Assembly: GCF_000373105.1 (NCBI RefSeq) | Contig: NZ_KB890415.1 | Span: forward strand, 46,222 to 110,221 | Reading direction: 5' to 3' | Source of the DNA: Neolewinella persica DSM 23188 | GTDB lineage: Bacteria > Bacteroidota > Bacteroidia > Chitinophagales > Saprospiraceae | DNA: 64,000 bases | Shown: positions 16,107 to 21,599 of the stretch, piece after piece | How the letters are laid out: each line of letters opens with the position of its first letter | How positions within the stretch are numbered: position 1 is the first letter of the stretch | Made by a program: the position numbers and the translations under genes | The notes under the pieces: generated by a model | Seen by the model: the letters and a program-made list of their open reading frames with translations, nothing else | Databases searched by the model: none | What the model was told of the DNA's origin: nothing

Positions 16107-17033
16107 ATGCGTCTAATGCAACATAAGCGCGAAGCCTATTGGTTCTATCGCTATCTTTCTATTTTCTATGATAAGCTGGTAAATCCTTTATTCTGGACAG
16201 AGCGGATGCGCGAAAAATCGCTCGACGTAGGTTACTGGGATGAAGGAGATGACCTGACCGTAATTGACGTTGGCTCAGGCACAGGATTCACCACGGAGGG
16301 CATAGTACGTCGGGTACCGGCACGCAACGTAACCTGTGTGGATCAAAGTCCCCATCAAATGGAGCACGCCAAAGTAAAGCCAGCGTTGGCGGGCTGTAGC
16401 TTCCAACTTGGTGATGCAGAGAACATTCCTTTTGCCGATGATACTTTTGATCGCTACGTGTCTGCCGGATCCATCGAGTACTGGCCAGATCCTCAGCGTG
16501 GTCTCAACGAAGCTTACCGCGTCATCAAACCTGGTGGCTGGGCGCTGATGATTGGCCCGCTGGAGCCAGTTAATCCGATCAGTAAGTTTGCCGCCAATAC
16601 CTGGATGCTATTTCCGCCAGAAGAAGATTACTTCCGCTTCATGGAAACGGCGGGGTTTGACCGCATTGACTATACCTACGTAGCGCCACAGTGGCAACGC
16701 AACGAACGCTACGGTATCGCCATCGTCGGCCGTAAACCAAAAGCAGGTAAAAGCCCGAACCACTATGAGGCAGTGGCGGAAGAGCAATCTCTGGTCGCCG
16801 TTTCTAATGAAGGTATGAGCCTCGGCCGTGGCATGTTGCTGGCCGGCCGCGTGCTGGCGGGTTCTGCTGCTGGTTTCATCTTTATTCCGATGGCTCTGGT
16901 CGCCTCCATAACCGCGCCACTGCGCGGTATCGATGCCAAGCCCGAACCATTGAACAAGCACCAGAAGGTGGCTTTAGCGGCGGTTGGAGTTGTGGCGGCC
17001 ATATTCATCGTCAACCGGATTACCCGGAAATAA
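16107..17033 (+). CDS. MPBQ/MSBQ-type methyltransferase (plant VTE3-like)
   Basis: Predicted SAM-dependent methyltransferase of the tocopherol/plastoquinone pathway, methylating 2-methyl-6-phytyl-benzoquinol. 308 aa. The N-terminus QHKREAYWFYRYLS, the SAM loop DVGSGTGFTTEGIV (near residue 53), the stretch VDQSPHQMEHAK and the motif SAGSIEYWPDPQRG (near 120-133) match plant VTE3 closely, far beyond general UbiE similarity. MLFPPEEDYF also fits. The C-terminal 100 residues add two hydrophobic segments (near 240-270 and 285-303), like the membrane anchor of the plant enzyme. It is followed by VTE4-like and VTE2-like genes on the same strand. Other methyltransferase roles in quinone synthesis are possible. 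Confidence 0.88.
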   Translation: MRLMQHKREAYWFYRYLSIFYDKLVNPLFWTERMREKSLDVGYWDEGDDLTVIDVGSGTGFTTEGIVRRVPARNVTCVDQSPHQMEHAKVKPALAGCSFQLGDAENIPFADDTFDRYVSAGSIEYWPDPQRGLNEAYRVIKPGGWALMIGPLEPVNPISKFAANTWMLFPPEEDYFRFMETAGFDRIDYTYVAPQWQRNERYGIAIVGRKPKAGKSPNHYEAVAEEQSLVAVSNEGMSLGRGMLLAGRVLAGSAAGFIFIPMALVASITAPLRGIDAKPEPLNKHQKVALAAVGVVAAIFIVNRITRK

Positions 17034-17035
17034 TC

Positions 17036-17144
17036 AAGTTTTCACGTCATCGGGTTTTCAAGTTGTCGAGTTTTCTGGTTGTCAAGTTTTACCCATCCGA
17101 CAACCCGACAACCCGATAACCCGACAATTCGACAACCCAACAAC
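17036..17144. repeat. Variable-arm palindromic element (CGGGTTGTC word) upstream of the VTE4-like gene
   Basis: The left arm repeats CGGGTTTTCAAGTTGTCGAG and the right arm repeats GACAACCCGACAACCCGATA, its inverse, with a very short centre near 17090. The right arm ends directly at the ATG at 17145, so it would form the leader of that gene. Confidence 0.8.
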
Positions 17145-17993
17145 ATGAACCTCAACACGCGAATTAAAGACTTCTATGACGCTTCCACACCCCTGTGGTT
17201 GAATACGTGGGGAGAGCAGATGCACCATGGCTTTTACGGCCAGGATGGCAAGCGGAAGGTTGGCCATCAGCAGGCTCAGCTTGATATGATTGAGGCCATG
17301 CTGGAATGGGGGCAGGCACCGGCCAGGGTTCGAAGGTTTCTGGATGCGGGTTGCGGTGTTGGTGGTAGTAGCCGATACCTGGCGCTGAAGTATCCTGCTG
17401 CTCTGGGATTAGGGGTTACACTGAGCCCGGTGCAGGCACAGAATGGAAGAAAGTATAATGAGGAGGCCGGGGTAGGGGACCGGCTGGCCATACGTGCTCA
17501 GGACGTCTATTCATTAGATGAGGAAGAGGACGGCCCTTTCGATCTCATCTGGAGTATGGAAAGCGCCGAACACATGGAGGACAAAGTTGCCTTGATGGAC
17601 CTTTTCAACCGGCTGCTAAATCCGGGCGGGCAATTGATCATGGCAACTTGGTGTCACCGTCCGGAGCCTCCAATGTTGACCAAAAATGATCATCGGGTAC
17701 TAGGTAAAATTTGTGACCTTTATCACTTACCTCCGCTGGTGAGCGTCCCGGTGTTGGGCGAAGCCGCAACCCAGGTGGGATTTACCGATGTGGTGACCGA
17801 TGATTGGTCCGCAGCAGTAGAGCCATTTTGGGGCGCTGTAATAAATTCCGGGCTCGATCCGCGCAACTGGCCGGGTTTGATCCGTGCCGGATCAAGTACC
17901 ATCAAAGGTGCCTGGGCCATGAAATATATGAAAGAGGGCTTCCGTACGGGGGCGATTCGCTACGGCGTACTGCGTGCCACTAAAAGTAAGTAG
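17145..17993 (+). CDS. Gamma-tocopherol-methyltransferase-like enzyme (plant VTE4-like)
   Basis: Predicted SAM-dependent methyltransferase of 282 aa that would add the last ring methyl of tocopherols. It matches plant gamma-TMT along its length: WGEQMHHGFYG, the SAM loop DAGCGVGGSSRYLALKYPA (near residue 67), GVTLSPVQAQ, WSMESAEHMEDK (near 135), ATWCHR, and a C-terminal AVEPFWGAVI ... IKGAWAMKYMKEG. The ATG at 17145 is used; the longer frame reads through the palindrome arm and gives a repetitive, unrelated N-terminus. Substrate preference (tocopherol or a related chromanol) cannot be decided from sequence. Confidence 0.88.
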   Translation: MNLNTRIKDFYDASTPLWLNTWGEQMHHGFYGQDGKRKVGHQQAQLDMIEAMLEWGQAPARVRRFLDAGCGVGGSSRYLALKYPAALGLGVTLSPVQAQNGRKYNEEAGVGDRLAIRAQDVYSLDEEEDGPFDLIWSMESAEHMEDKVALMDLFNRLLNPGGQLIMATWCHRPEPPMLTKNDHRVLGKICDLYHLPPLVSVPVLGEAATQVGFTDVVTDDWSAAVEPFWGAVINSGLDPRNWPGLIRAGSSTIKGAWAMKYMKEGFRTGAIRYGVLRATKSK

Positions 17994-18182
17994 AGTCAGT
18001 AGTTAGTGGGTAGTACGTAGTGCCTGCATGCATGCTACCGCAAGTACAGGCAGCCACACGGCGCTTACCTTATTTATTCAATTTTTTAAAGCGACTGGGA
18101 TATTAGCTTTTCGGTCACGCAGGATACACGGCACTACATACTACCTGCTACCCGCTACTGACTACCCACTACTTACTACAAT
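17994..18182. repeat. Variable-arm palindromic element (GTAGTAGTGGG word) upstream of the prenyltransferase gene
   Basis: The left arm (GTCAGTAGTTAGTGGGTAGT onward, near 17996-18025) faces a longer right arm (CTGCTACCCGCTACTGACTA onward, 18137-18180). The centre includes the core piece GCTACCGCAAGTAC. The right arm ends 4 bases before the ATG at 18183. Confidence 0.8.
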
Positions 18183-19043
18183 ATGATCACTTTTCTCCGT
18201 TTCGGCCGGGCACATACGCTGATTGGTACTTCGCTTTCGTTGTTGGCACTGTACCTAATGGCGTCCCGGCACGTGGGCGCGCATGACTGGCTGATGTTTG
18301 GCCTTAGTTTGTTCAGCTGCCTGGCGGCCAACGTCTACATCACCGGCCTGAACCAAGTGACGGATGTGGAGATAGACCGGATCAATAAGCCTTACCTGCC
18401 ACTTGCGAGTGGAGCTTACACTATGCAAACTGGTAAGCTGATCGTAGGGGTTTGTGGTGTTTTAGCGGTAGTGTCGTGCCTGATCTACCGACCGTGGTTA
18501 ATGGCTACGGTCCTGTCTAGTCTCGCCATCGGCACGGCTTACAGCTTAGAACCCATTCGCCTTAAGCGGTACCATTTCTGGGCAGCGTTCTGCATAATTG
18601 TCGTTCGCGGATTGATCGTTAATTTGCTGCTGTATTTGCACTTTCGAACGGCATTAGGGGCGGGGCCGCAGGTGCAAAGTTCGGTTTGGCTGCTGACCGC
18701 GATCATCTTCGTTTTCGGCGTCATCATTGCCTGGTTTAAGGACCTTCCCGATACCGAAGGAGACGAAGCTTACGGTATCAAGACCCTGACTTTGCTGCAA
18801 TCTCGGGAGTGGGTCTATTCCCGGGGAGGGTTGTTACTCACCCTTACCCTGTTTTTGGCCGCCGCTTACAGTTTCTGGGTAGAATGGATATGGCTCGGCC
18901 TCGGACTGACAGTGCTACTGGCGGGCTACCGGTTTATTTCTTCCCGCCTCGACTTGTCCGACCAAGCCTCCATCGCCCGCTTTTATCAGGGGACGTGGGT
19001 GGTGTTTTTCGGCGTGTACATCGTGTTTGGGGTTTTGGGGTAG
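18183..19043 (+). CDS. UbiA prenyltransferase, homogentisate phytyltransferase-like (plant VTE2-like)
   Basis: Integral membrane prenyltransferase of 286 aa with about eight helices. It should condense homogentisate with phytyl or geranylgeranyl diphosphate, the committed step to tocopherols. The first Asp-rich motif is N57..D61..D65 (NQVTDVEIDRINKP), followed by YLPLASGAY, which is the plant VTE2 signature. The second is KDLPDTEGD near residue 184. A single His in LLYLHF also matches. MenA and UbiA proper have different motifs at these sites. The start ATG abuts the palindrome arm. A GC-rich word copy sits inside the gene at 18657-18679 and codes for a loop (GAGPQV). No cyclase or HPPD gene is in the window. 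Confidence 0.88.
   Translation: MITFLRFGRAHTLIGTSLSLLALYLMASRHVGAHDWLMFGLSLFSCLAANVYITGLNQVTDVEIDRINKPYLPLASGAYTMQTGKLIVGVCGVLAVVSCLIYRPWLMATVLSSLAIGTAYSLEPIRLKRYHFWAAFCIIVVRGLIVNLLLYLHFRTALGAGPQVQSSVWLLTAIIFVFGVIIAWFKDLPDTEGDEAYGIKTLTLLQSREWVYSRGGLLLTLTLFLAAAYSFWVEWIWLGLGLTVLLAGYRFISSRLDLSDQASIARFYQGTWVVFFGVYIVFGVLG
18657..18679 (-). repeat. Dispersed GC-rich word inside the prenyltransferase gene
   Basis: On the minus strand TTTGCACCTGCGGCCCCGCC. It encodes the loop GAGPQV between two membrane helices. Confidence 0.65.
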
Positions 19044-19049
19044 CCGCTA

Positions 19050-19203
19050 GGTTGCCCGGACGTCCAAAGCTGTATTTTGCCAGGAAGAAGTCCCAACCCC
19101 ACTCCGTAGAAATGAGGTTGAAAGTGTCCAGGTTCGGGTCGAAATCAGCGGTATCTCCATACCACCCCGTCAACAATAAGTTGCCGTCCTTATCTAGAGG
19201 CAA
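19050..19203 (-). pseudogene. Remnant of a propeller-repeat (SBBP-like) protein
   Basis: The minus strand reads DKDGNLLLTGWYGDTADFDP, then a short gap and WDFFLAKYS. This is the unit pattern of SBBP-type surface proteins (D..GN..VTG....FDP...D.F.AKY). It has no start region, no second repeat and no sorting domain, and overlaps the 3' end of the beta-helix gene by about 10 bases, so it is probably debris of a deleted gene. Confidence 0.45.
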
Positions 19204-20342
19204 CTCGCTTCATTCGCTGGTAAGGCGATCCCTCCAATCACCCAATTGCCCCGGCCGCAATCCTGGTAGACGTCTTCCTCGTTTACGAGTACGATATTCT
19301 CGAAGGTTTCCAATAGTGGAAAACCCAGGTTGAACCGATTTGTCTCGGCAGCAAGTTCATAATCGAATAAGCCGGAAGCGCCGGCGCGGTTAAGGACCAA
19401 TAAATTATTGTTGGCCTCGCCAAGCAATTGGAAGTTGAATTCGAGATTGTTGTACGAGTTATTGCGGAAGACAACGCTCTGGGTAGCCGCGACATCAGAC
19501 CCCGATAATTCGCCGCTGGGCAAAAGCCATAGCCCCTGTGGTGCGTCGCTAAGGACAAAGCCCGTAAGGTTAGCGAAGCATTCATTATTGGCTACGAGGG
19601 TGTGGCGACTGCTGGCCCAGATTCCTGCTTGGTAACCAGTGACCGTGTTGTTGCGAACCCGGGCGTGGTCGCCTTTCATGGTCACAATGCCTGTAGCAAA
19701 AGGGGTGTCCGGGCGCGCGTAGAGCGCCTGAGCTATGAAGCGGTTGCCTGCGATAGATACGTAGTCACTACCCTCGAGAAGAACCCCGAATTGGTGGTTG
19801 GTAATGGTGTTATTCGCAATGATCGACCGTTTGCTGTCCTCCACCAGGACCGCTACGCCGCCCACGCTGCCCGATGGGCGGATGTCGATTCCGGCGATGA
19901 GCGACTTGGGCGCATTACGCAGGTGCAGGGCGGGGTCAAGAAAGCCGGCAATGATTTGGTAAGTTGTCGTGGTTACCTCGAGTACGGCTCCCTCCTGCCC
20001 GAGCAGATTGAGGGTATAGGGGATGACCACAGAGGACGATTCCCGGTGGAGGCCACTGGCCAGCCGCACCGTTCCTCGGGGGCCAGCTGCTGCGATGGCT
20101 GCCGCAAGTGCATCGACGGAACCCGCCGGTACGGTCACTACCGCTGCTTTTTGGTTAGACCCAAGCCGGGTCTCCAACTGCTTTCGGTCGGCGGCTAATT
20201 CGGCTTCCGCCTTATCGACTTTGGCCCTTACGGACGATAGGTCTACCACCGCAGCATCGACGGGAACGAGGCGGTCGGTTTCACAGGAGGATACCCCGCA
20301 AGCAAGGCAGCACAAAAAGAAAAGATAGGATAGCGTACGCAT
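19194..20342 (-). CDS. Right-handed beta-helix lipoprotein (paralogue A)
   Basis: A 382-aa predicted lipoprotein: signal peptide with lipobox VSSC, then a short helical linker (residues 30-65), then a parallel beta-helix. The helix starts with GSVDALAAAIAAAG and a pectate-lyase-like GTVRLASGLHRES. Coils follow, with repeated N-rich turns such as IIANNTITNHQFGVLLEGSD. No catalytic residues of a known lyase family could be identified. About half of its residues are identical to the next gene upstream (20460-21599), so the two arose by tandem duplication. Both lie beside the hybrid two-component gene. Carbohydrate binding or cleavage is possible but not shown. Confidence 0.8.
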   Translation of the reverse strand: MRTLSYLFFLCCLACGVSSCETDRLVPVDAAVVDLSSVRAKVDKAEAELAADRKQLETRLGSNQKAAVVTVPAGSVDALAAAIAAAGPRGTVRLASGLHRESSSVVIPYTLNLLGQEGAVLEVTTTTYQIIAGFLDPALHLRNAPKSLIAGIDIRPSGSVGGVAVLVEDSKRSIIANNTITNHQFGVLLEGSDYVSIAGNRFIAQALYARPDTPFATGIVTMKGDHARVRNNTVTGYQAGIWASSRHTLVANNECFANLTGFVLSDAPQGLWLLPSGELSGSDVAATQSVVFRNNSYNNLEFNFQLLGEANNNLLVLNRAGASGLFDYELAAETNRFNLGFPLLETFENIVLVNEEDVYQDCGRGNWVIGGIALPANEASCL

Positions 20343-20459: not shown

Positions 20460-21599
20460 TTAGAAACAATTTACCTCATCGGCTGGCACCTCCTCGCCTC
20501 CCCAGATGGTGTTATCCGTGCCGCAATCGACGTAGGTATCTCCGGCGGGCAGCAGCGCGCGGTTCCTGAAAGTCTCCGGCAGGAGAAAACCCAGTGAGTA
20601 CCGGTCGGTCTCCATGGTGAATTCGTAGTCAACCCGGCCGGCATTGTCGGTACTGTTGAAGACGAGCAGGTTATTATTTGCTCCATCGATCGCTTGGATG
20701 TTGACGTCAAGGTTGTCATGCGCACTGTTCCCAAATACCAGGGTACGGAAGGCTGAAAAGTCCGAGCCGGAGAGCTCCCCACTGGGGAGTTTCCAGGTGC
20801 CCGGCGTCGCCCGGCAAAGCACTAAGCCGAGGAAGTTAGTTTGCATTTCATTGCCGATCACCCGGCCGAAGCGGCTACAGGCCCAGATGCCGATGAAAAA
20901 TCCAGAGACGTCGTTGCCGGAGACGCCGGCCCGGTCCCCCTTCATCGTCAGGATCCCGGTGGCGAAGGGAGCCTCGTTGGTCTGCCAGAGTGGAGTGCCG
21001 ATCACCTCATTGCCGATAATAAATACCCGGTCGCTCGCTTCCAGCAATACCCCGAACTGGAACTGGTCGATCCGGTTTTCCCGGAGGTAGGTCCGCGGAC
21101 TATCCTCCACCAGGATGCCCACGCCTCCGGCCACGCCGGTAGGACGGATCTCGATGCCGGTGATGTAGGTACGTGGAGCGTTTAGGACATGTATGGCGGG
21201 ATCGAGCGAAGTCGTTGCGAAATTATGCAGGCCGGTGGTGACCTCCAGTACCGCCCCGGCTTGCCCGATTAACTTGAGCTGGTGAGGAATGAGTACGGTA
21301 GCCGATTCAGTATGGACACCACTTTCGAGTACTACGGTGCCGCCTCTGCCGGCTTGCGCAATGGCTGCAGCCAGGGCATCCACGGAGCCGCCGGGGACGC
21401 TTACGGCTTGGCGTTTAGGGAAGGAAGTAACCTCCTTTTTCCGCTCGGTCAGCTCGGCTTGGAATTCCGCCTCGAGCTTATTGGCTTCCGCTTCTAAGGC
21501 GGCAGCGGTGTCGTCTGGTGTTGTTATCTGAACAGGTGCTACTTCGCAGGCGAAGCAGAATAAGAAAACAAAGGAAAGGCAGTGGGTAAGGTAACGCAT
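20460..21599 (-). CDS. Right-handed beta-helix lipoprotein (paralogue B)
   Basis: A 379-aa paralogue of the preceding gene product. It has a lipoprotein signal with lipobox FACE, a linker rich in Ala and Glu (AAALEAEANKLEAEF), and then the same beta-helix beginning GSVDALAAAIAQAG. Shared landmarks are GILVEDSPR, QFGVLLEASD, PFATGILTMKGD and LPSGELSGSDFSA, and both end ADEVNCF or similar. The gap between the pair is 117 bases, so they may be co-transcribed. Conserved PFATGI and TMKGD stretches may mark the functional face. The role is unknown. Confidence 0.8.
   Translation of the reverse strand: MRYLTHCLSFVFLFCFACEVAPVQITTPDDTAAALEAEANKLEAEFQAELTERKKEVTSFPKRQAVSVPGGSVDALAAAIAQAGRGGTVVLESGVHTESATVLIPHQLKLIGQAGAVLEVTTGLHNFATTSLDPAIHVLNAPRTYITGIEIRPTGVAGGVGILVEDSPRTYLRENRIDQFQFGVLLEASDRVFIIGNEVIGTPLWQTNEAPFATGILTMKGDRAGVSGNDVSGFFIGIWACSRFGRVIGNEMQTNFLGLVLCRATPGTWKLPSGELSGSDFSAFRTLVFGNSAHDNLDVNIQAIDGANNNLLVFNSTDNAGRVDYEFTMETDRYSLGFLLPETFRNRALLPAGDTYVDCGTDNTIWGGEEVPADEVNCF

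Follow-up and report, generated by a model that had tools for sequence, protein, structure and literature searches.

Does the small gene cluster of Neolewinella persica DSM 23188 that resembles the tocopherol genes VTE3, VTE4 and VTE2 serve vitamin E synthesis in a bacterium that does not photosynthesize? The cluster lies in a 64,000-nucleotide stretch of contig NZ_KB890415.1 (positions 46,222 to 110,221), referred to here as the window. A first-pass annotation had described three consecutive plus-strand genes, which we found at 16107–17033 (VTE3-like), 17145–17993 (VTE4-like) and 18183–19043 (VTE2), and all the motifs that it quoted (SAGSIEYWPDPQRG, WSMESAEHM, NQVTDVEIDRINKP and KDLPDTEGD) are present in them. 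Our analysis suggests that, although the bacterium is non-photosynthetic, the cluster is probably the committed part of a pathway to tocochromanols (vitamin E).

The best-defined member is VTE2, a 286-residue protein of the UbiA superfamily. It matched the NCBIfam equivalog model "homogentisate phytyltransferase" (NF009525) with 294 bits against a cut-off of 226, and the runner-up prenyltransferase model reached only 60.4 bits. Both aspartate-rich UbiA motifs are present (NQVTDVEID and KDLPDTEGD), and identity to the cyanobacterial copies in the fetched loci is about 41–48%. A tree was built from 60 of 78 loci encoding homogentisate phytyltransferase (HPT), with near copies and at least one short sequence omitted, and three outgroup rows. 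VTE2 fell on the cyanobacterial HPT side with a Shimodaira–Hasegawa-like approximate likelihood ratio (SH-aLRT) support of 100, and the three other UbiA rows sat on very long branches. On model scores and tree, we rejected the readings of this protein as a prenyltransferase for menaquinone, chlorophyll or archaeal lipids; a separate UbiA gene is located on contig C32 of the same genome. VTE2 is of the cyanobacterial kind by these comparisons and is predicted to use homogentisate and phytyl diphosphate.

Profile searches placed both methyltransferases of the cluster in class I. They are named VTE3 and VTE4 from their co-occurrence and trees, from a comparison with cyanobacterial VTE4 and from plant sequences. 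The VTE4-like gene was read from the ATG at 17145, giving 282 residues (the mechanical open reading frame list instead begins at a TTG, 17079). Its product is 38–43% identical to cyanobacterial VTE4 over the full length. In the VTE4 tree, the Saprospirales rows and one metagenome-assembled genome (MAG) labelled Deltaproteobacteria form a clade (support 98) inside a group with cyanobacterial VTE4, which includes the cyanobacterial copies adjoining VTE2; three outgroup methyltransferases lie far off. Phylogeny agreed with the initial assignment of VTE2 and VTE4: both group with their cyanobacterial counterparts, at a great distance from the remaining UbiA and methyltransferase rows in the trees. 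VTE4 is assigned to the cyanobacterial kind and is a predicted gamma-tocopherol methyltransferase, an enzyme that, according to a passage in PMC5745509, methylates gamma- and delta-tocopherol.

VTE3 has a different affinity. The 308-residue protein, a predicted 2-methyl-6-phytyl-benzoquinol methyltransferase, contains 19-residue hydrophobic stretches beginning near residues 250 and 288. Among the matches listed, 10 cyanobacteria with HPT and cyclase contained no close counterpart; the best scored 58 bits, and several of these matches of 58 bits or less are VTE4-like. Matches of 372–382 bits came from three MAGs, one of Solirubrobacteraceae, one of Heimdallarchaeota and one of another archaeon. 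Arabidopsis VTE3, whose sequence serves as a lead rather than a database test, is 48.5% identical to the window protein over 268 residues and 45–55% identical to most bacterial rows. We built a tree from the window protein, 27 selected bacterial and archaeal rows, this one plant row and an outgroup of seven methyltransferases. The plant row joined the Heimdallarchaeota and Solirubrobacteraceae rows (98/96), apart from the generic methyltransferases; the deep branching order of the Saprospirales rows was not resolved. Cheng et al. 2003 state in their title that cyanobacteria and photosynthetic eukaryotes use highly divergent enzymes at the VTE3 step, and their work reportedly drew an archaeal link for the plant enzyme. 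The first-pass annotation had treated the plant VTE3 kind as common to plants and cyanobacteria; scores, comparisons and tree correct this, and VTE3 is assigned to a plant/archaeal, not a cyanobacterial, kind. Given the VTE2 and VTE4 comparisons, VTE3 is the only member that distinguishes the cluster from cyanobacteria. Viral contigs were also searched for VTE3, in the hope of an algal copy, and none was found.

Two archaeal assemblies with plant-kind VTE3 also carry HPT relatives. These are the Heimdallarchaeota MAG (L217, 2255–3184; L227, 1510–2349), with an HPT relative at 294.6 bits against a cut-off of 226 on L217, and the other archaeal MAG (L214, 3959–4876; L228). In both, VTE3 (378–382 bits) is encoded on contigs other than that of HPT, and a ThyD-like TIGR01777 oxidoreductase gene adjoins HPT.

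The genome comprises 7.08 Mb in 84 contigs and is rated 100% complete. HPPD, the cyclase VTE1 and geranylgeranyl reductase had been reported as missing; they are indeed not in the window, yet HPPD, the reductase gene GGR1 and a cyclase-family gene were found elsewhere in the genome, so that all six genes of the proposed route are present. HPPD (4-hydroxyphenylpyruvate dioxygenase) is encoded on contig C35 (TIGR01263, 436 bits; cut-off 277), and GGR1 on contig C9 (geranylgeranyl reductase subfamily model, 215.5 bits; cut-off 158.8). A second geranylgeranyl-reductase-family protein on C2 scored 188 bits, and a protein on C68 matched Pfam Tocopherol_cycl with 66 bits (cut-off 26.6). No match to the photosynthetic reaction-centre family Photo_RC was obtained in this genome, with a positive Synechococcus control, and we take the genus Neolewinella to be chemoheterotrophic. 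The first proposal, that a non-photosynthetic organism has a pathway to tocopherol-like compounds or a related prenylquinone, is supported by the trees, HPPD, the cyclase-family protein and the lack of Photo_RC; the end product of the pathway is a prediction.

We followed the gene set through 100 genomes, comprising this one, 20 others of the genus, 40 of the family and 39 of the order. VTE2 exceeded its cut-off in 26 of them: all 21 genus members, five of the 40 other family members and none of the remaining 39. VTE3 scored at least 356 bits in exactly these 26 carriers and, among the matches listed, about 50 bits or less in the other 74. VTE4 scored at least 297 bits in 27 genomes, the 26 carriers and G046, with the other 73 at 80 bits or less among the matches listed. 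In G046, the 4,430-base contig that carries VTE4 ends 596 bases away from the gene, in the direction in which VTE2 would be expected, and its neighbour may be absent from the assembly. This bimodality of VTE3 and VTE4 scores is far beyond chance. Carriers of VTE2, VTE3 and VTE4 span six of 73 genera, and at genus level VTE3 was found in 6/6 versus 0/67 (Fisher p 6e-9, uncorrected for relatedness). A GGR1 ortholog (at least 616 bits) was present in 21 of the 26 carriers and in none of the 74 other genomes.

Gene order was compared across the 78 HPT loci, a sample from named public genomes retrieved with two conserved peptides rather than a census, with flanks of up to 4 kb, some cut by contig ends. 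The order GGR1-VTE3-VTE4-VTE2, with GGR1 directly upstream, occurs in 15 loci from related genera, and VTE3-VTE4-VTE2 in another 15. Less frequent orders were GGR1-VTE4-VTE2 (two loci), VTE4-VTE2-GGR1 (one), VTE4-VTE2 (five, four of them cyanobacterial) and VTE2-VTE4 with VTE4 reversed (one, a cyanobacterium); VTE4 is thus beside VTE2 in five of 20 cyanobacterial loci. The flanks of the remaining 39 contained no other cluster gene. Among the 26 carriers, VTE2 and VTE4 adjoin in 17 and are apart in nine Neolewinella genomes. In these nine, VTE3 and VTE4 are still neighbours, with GGR1 at a distance of about 5.5 kb (the intervening genes were read in G020). That these genomes keep the set complete although the operon is broken up is good evidence for one function.

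Two further observations concern other HPT loci. The Deltaproteobacteria-labelled MAG (PRO9; L175, 1–3569) has VTE4-VTE2-GGR1, with a cyclase-family protein elsewhere and no VTE3 of this kind; transfer or mis-binning, which are not distinguishable here, may account for it. An HPT-like clade (L197, L203–L207, L209–L211) comprises Chitinophagaceae, Ferruginibacter, Cryomorpha and other Bacteroidetes MAGs. Its flanks lack VTE3 and VTE4, the cyclase family was absent from the seven of its nine genomes that were searched, and several of its rows lack the standard first UbiA motif when scored by regular expression.

From these genes we infer each catalytic step of the following route, including the closing of the ring by the C68 protein, as well as the nature of the tail and the role as an antioxidant. 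HPPD would convert 4-hydroxyphenylpyruvate into homogentisate, and the dedicated reductase GGR1 would reduce geranylgeranyl diphosphate to phytyl diphosphate. VTE2 would join homogentisate and phytyl diphosphate to yield 2-methyl-6-phytyl-benzoquinol, to which VTE3 would add a ring methyl. The C68 protein, a divergent member of the tocopherol cyclase family, would close the chromanol ring. A final methylation by VTE4 would yield alpha-tocopherol or a closely related compound as a membrane antioxidant. An alpha-tocopherol-like chromanol is the most likely product, at fair probability; alpha-tocopherol is favoured by the action described for VTE4 on gamma- and delta-tocopherol and by the inheritance, together with the cluster, of a reductase suited to producing a phytyl tail. 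It is an evenly balanced proposition that non-photosynthetic Saprospirales make their own alpha-tocopherol by a hybrid route, which would combine cyanobacterial-type VTE2 and VTE4 with a plant/archaeal VTE3 and a divergent cyclase and would replace ChlP by a reductase encoded in the operon.

Ring closure is the weak step of the proposed pathway. The C68 protein matched cyanobacterial VTE1 over its full length in a profile comparison, at 21% identity, and predicted structures of the two have a common two-domain fold; the mean predicted local distance difference test score is 91.6 for the C68 model and 63.5 for cyanobacterial VTE1, whose fold matches are weaker. Its motif YIEKDWG is one change from the conserved YxEKNWG. 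All 39 Saprospirales-type rows have Y.EKDWG, and YxEKNWG is found in nine of 10 cyanobacterial rows and in the Solirubrobacteraceae row. The Tocopherol_cycl family occurs in 26/26 carriers and in 17/74 other relatives. This corresponds to 6/6 versus 17/67 at genus level (Fisher p 6e-4) and to 5/5 versus 14/35 among the other family members only (p 0.018), both uncorrected for relatedness. Outside the 100 relatives, we compared 20 named non-cyanobacterial genomes with HPT, several of them incomplete MAGs. The family was found in all seven genomes with VTE4 beside HPT (G110–G114, G128, G129), in one of three in which a different contig encodes this kind of VTE3 (present in G123; absent in G124 and G126) and in none of the 10 with neither. 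A superoxide dismutase gene beside the C68 cyclase gene was not used as a link to oxidative stress, such genes being rare at the relatives' cyclase loci: within 1.5-kb flanks one was seen at three of 30 (L064, L067, L070), with a weaker match at a cyanobacterial locus (L253). Among the matches listed in sequence searches of the PDB, no chain was named VTE1, VTE3 or VTE4.

Several observations weigh against the tocochromanol assignment. The relatives' cyclase-family proteins score 43–81 bits, compared with 301–555 in 10 cyanobacteria, and are distant from true VTE1. In a tree of 30 of the 43 matching relatives, 19 loci from named genomes and the C68 protein, the C68-type and cyanobacterial VTE1 rows form separate clades on long branches, and carriers and non-carriers are intermixed (seven changes). 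Because the tree does not separate carriers from non-carriers, the cyclase-family protein is judged older than the cluster, and it may serve another function; the idea that it was acquired in the same evolutionary package as the cluster was dropped on account of this intermixing, though 26/26 carriers have it. No cyclase-family gene was seen in the HPT loci. At the reductase step, GGR1 scored 114.5 bits with the ChlP/BchP model TIGR02023, far below its cut-off of 343.3, and five carriers lack GGR1: G003, G007 and G009, and also G002 and G015, two genomes with a completeness rating of 100%. HPPD was not kept as specific evidence, being above its cut-off in 89/100 relatives (24/26 carriers and 65/74 others); the two carriers without a full match are G009 (55% complete) and G034 (a fragment). 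Neither methyltransferase reaches any curated equivalog cut-off. The plant VTE2 and VTE4 sequences are as close or closer to the cyanobacterial copies than to those of the window: Arabidopsis VTE2 is 35.8% identical to the window protein over 293 residues and 40–43% to the cyanobacterial ones, and Arabidopsis VTE4 is 37.6% identical over 290 residues and 42–50% to three cyanobacterial ones. Finally, two Saprospirales loci (L172 and L178) have the GGR1-VTE4-VTE2 cluster without VTE3, for which a beta- rather than an alpha-type product is predicted if no VTE3 lies elsewhere in the genome.

The main rival explanation, which we consider unlikely, is that the pathway ends in a methylated phytyl- or geranylgeranyl-benzoquinone, a plastoquinone-like redox lipid, with VTE4 acting on the quinol and the cyclase-family protein otherwise employed. 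The presence of that protein in 17/74 genomes without VTE2, intermixed in the tree, is in keeping with such a product; the conservation of VTE4, as strict as that of VTE2, speaks against it. Menaquinone-7 is the major quinone in 15/15 Saprospiria with data (three not available) in the part of PMC6767994 concerned, so the major quinone known from them is no benzoquinone; minor lipids usually go unreported. Passages in the literature point both ways: plant VTE3 also serves plastoquinone synthesis (PMC11911349) and the non-phototroph Nitrospira makes methyl-plastoquinones (PMC12324825), whereas the substrates described for VTE4 are gamma- and delta-tocopherol (PMC5745509).

A variation on the chromanol product, in which species with GGR1 would make a tocopherol-type compound and those without it a tocotrienol-type compound with an unsaturated tail, is improbable. 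The five carriers that lack GGR1 do keep VTE2, VTE3 and VTE4, as this split would predict; however, a second geranylgeranyl-reductase-family protein, 28–32% identical to GGR1 and present in 21/21 genus members, could substitute, and the split is inapplicable to the window's genome, in which GGR1 is present. More improbable still is a role of the genes in the metabolism of menaquinone, chlorophyll or archaeal-like lipids, with no more than a resemblance to tocopherol enzymes. UbiA proteins and class I methyltransferases form very large superfamilies, and such a resemblance would fit methyltransferases that fall under every curated cut-off; against it stand the 294 bits of the homogentisate phytyltransferase match compared with at most 60.4 for other prenyltransferase models, the VTE2, VTE4 and VTE3 trees, the exclusive co-occurrence of the gene set and the separate UbiA gene on C32.

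The tocochromanol reading can be set beside known systems. The cyanobacterial tocopherol pathway (Hpt, VTE4, VTE1) shares the kind of VTE2 and VTE4 and, in some loci, VTE4-VTE2 adjacency; it differs in that the VTE3 here is of another kind, the cyclase is far diverged and Photo_RC is lacking. In related genera the reductase gene is in the operon, whereas Synechocystis uses ChlP, as a passage in PMC7133116 states. The window protein resembles plant and algal VTE3 (MPBQ/MSBQ methyltransferase) in its identity to the Arabidopsis lead sequence and in a hydrophobic C terminus, but it is bacterial and clustered with VTE4 and VTE2. The C68 protein belongs to the same family, with the same motif region, as the tocopherol-cyclase-like proteins of heterotrophic bacteria described in part of PMC4963081, which leaves their function unknown; here the family is found in every genome of the 100 with VTE2, VTE3 and VTE4. 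The methyl-plastoquinone of Nitrospira, as described in a section of PMC12324825, is likewise a methylated prenyl-benzoquinone lipid in a non-phototroph, but the NCBIfam MpqE model gave only 33 bits on the window VTE3 (cut-off 335). Literature searches, with subscription journals and preprints outside their scope, listed nothing on tocopherol in Saprospirales or on the presence of this gene set there; one paper mentions "Lewinella" and "tocopherol" in what, in the passages concerned, are unrelated places. The enzymes are of known kinds; what is new is that they come together with a reductase in an organism that is not phototrophic.

Within the window, the cluster genes are separated by two structured spacers. 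The first (17034–17144) contains CGACAACC-kind repeats and imperfect inverted repeats, and the pattern CGACAACCCGACAACC, allowing up to two mismatches, is confined within the window to this spacer. The second (17994–18182) has inverted repeats of 23 nt (83% complementary) and 21 nt (86%). Downstream, two minus-strand neighbours (19194–20342 and 20460–21599) encode products that resemble paralogs, the first of which matches Pfam Beta_helix and NosD.

A passage in the review PMC5745509 states that tocopherols are synthesized by photosynthetic organisms only. The conserved operon in culture-collection bacteria (Neolewinella, Flavilitoribacter nigricans and Phaeodactylibacter luteus) makes this statement testable. 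The pathway could explain what the tocopherol-cyclase-like proteins described from heterotrophs in part of PMC4963081 do. The apparent losses of GGR1 within the genus offer a built-in comparison of tocopherol with tocotrienol. If the assignment is true, plant-type VTE3 has bacterial and Asgard-archaeal homologs in genomes that hold HPT, and the origin of plant VTE3 would become a question that trees can address. For the Saprospirales themselves, the gene set could show a role for vitamin E in a cell without photosynthesis.

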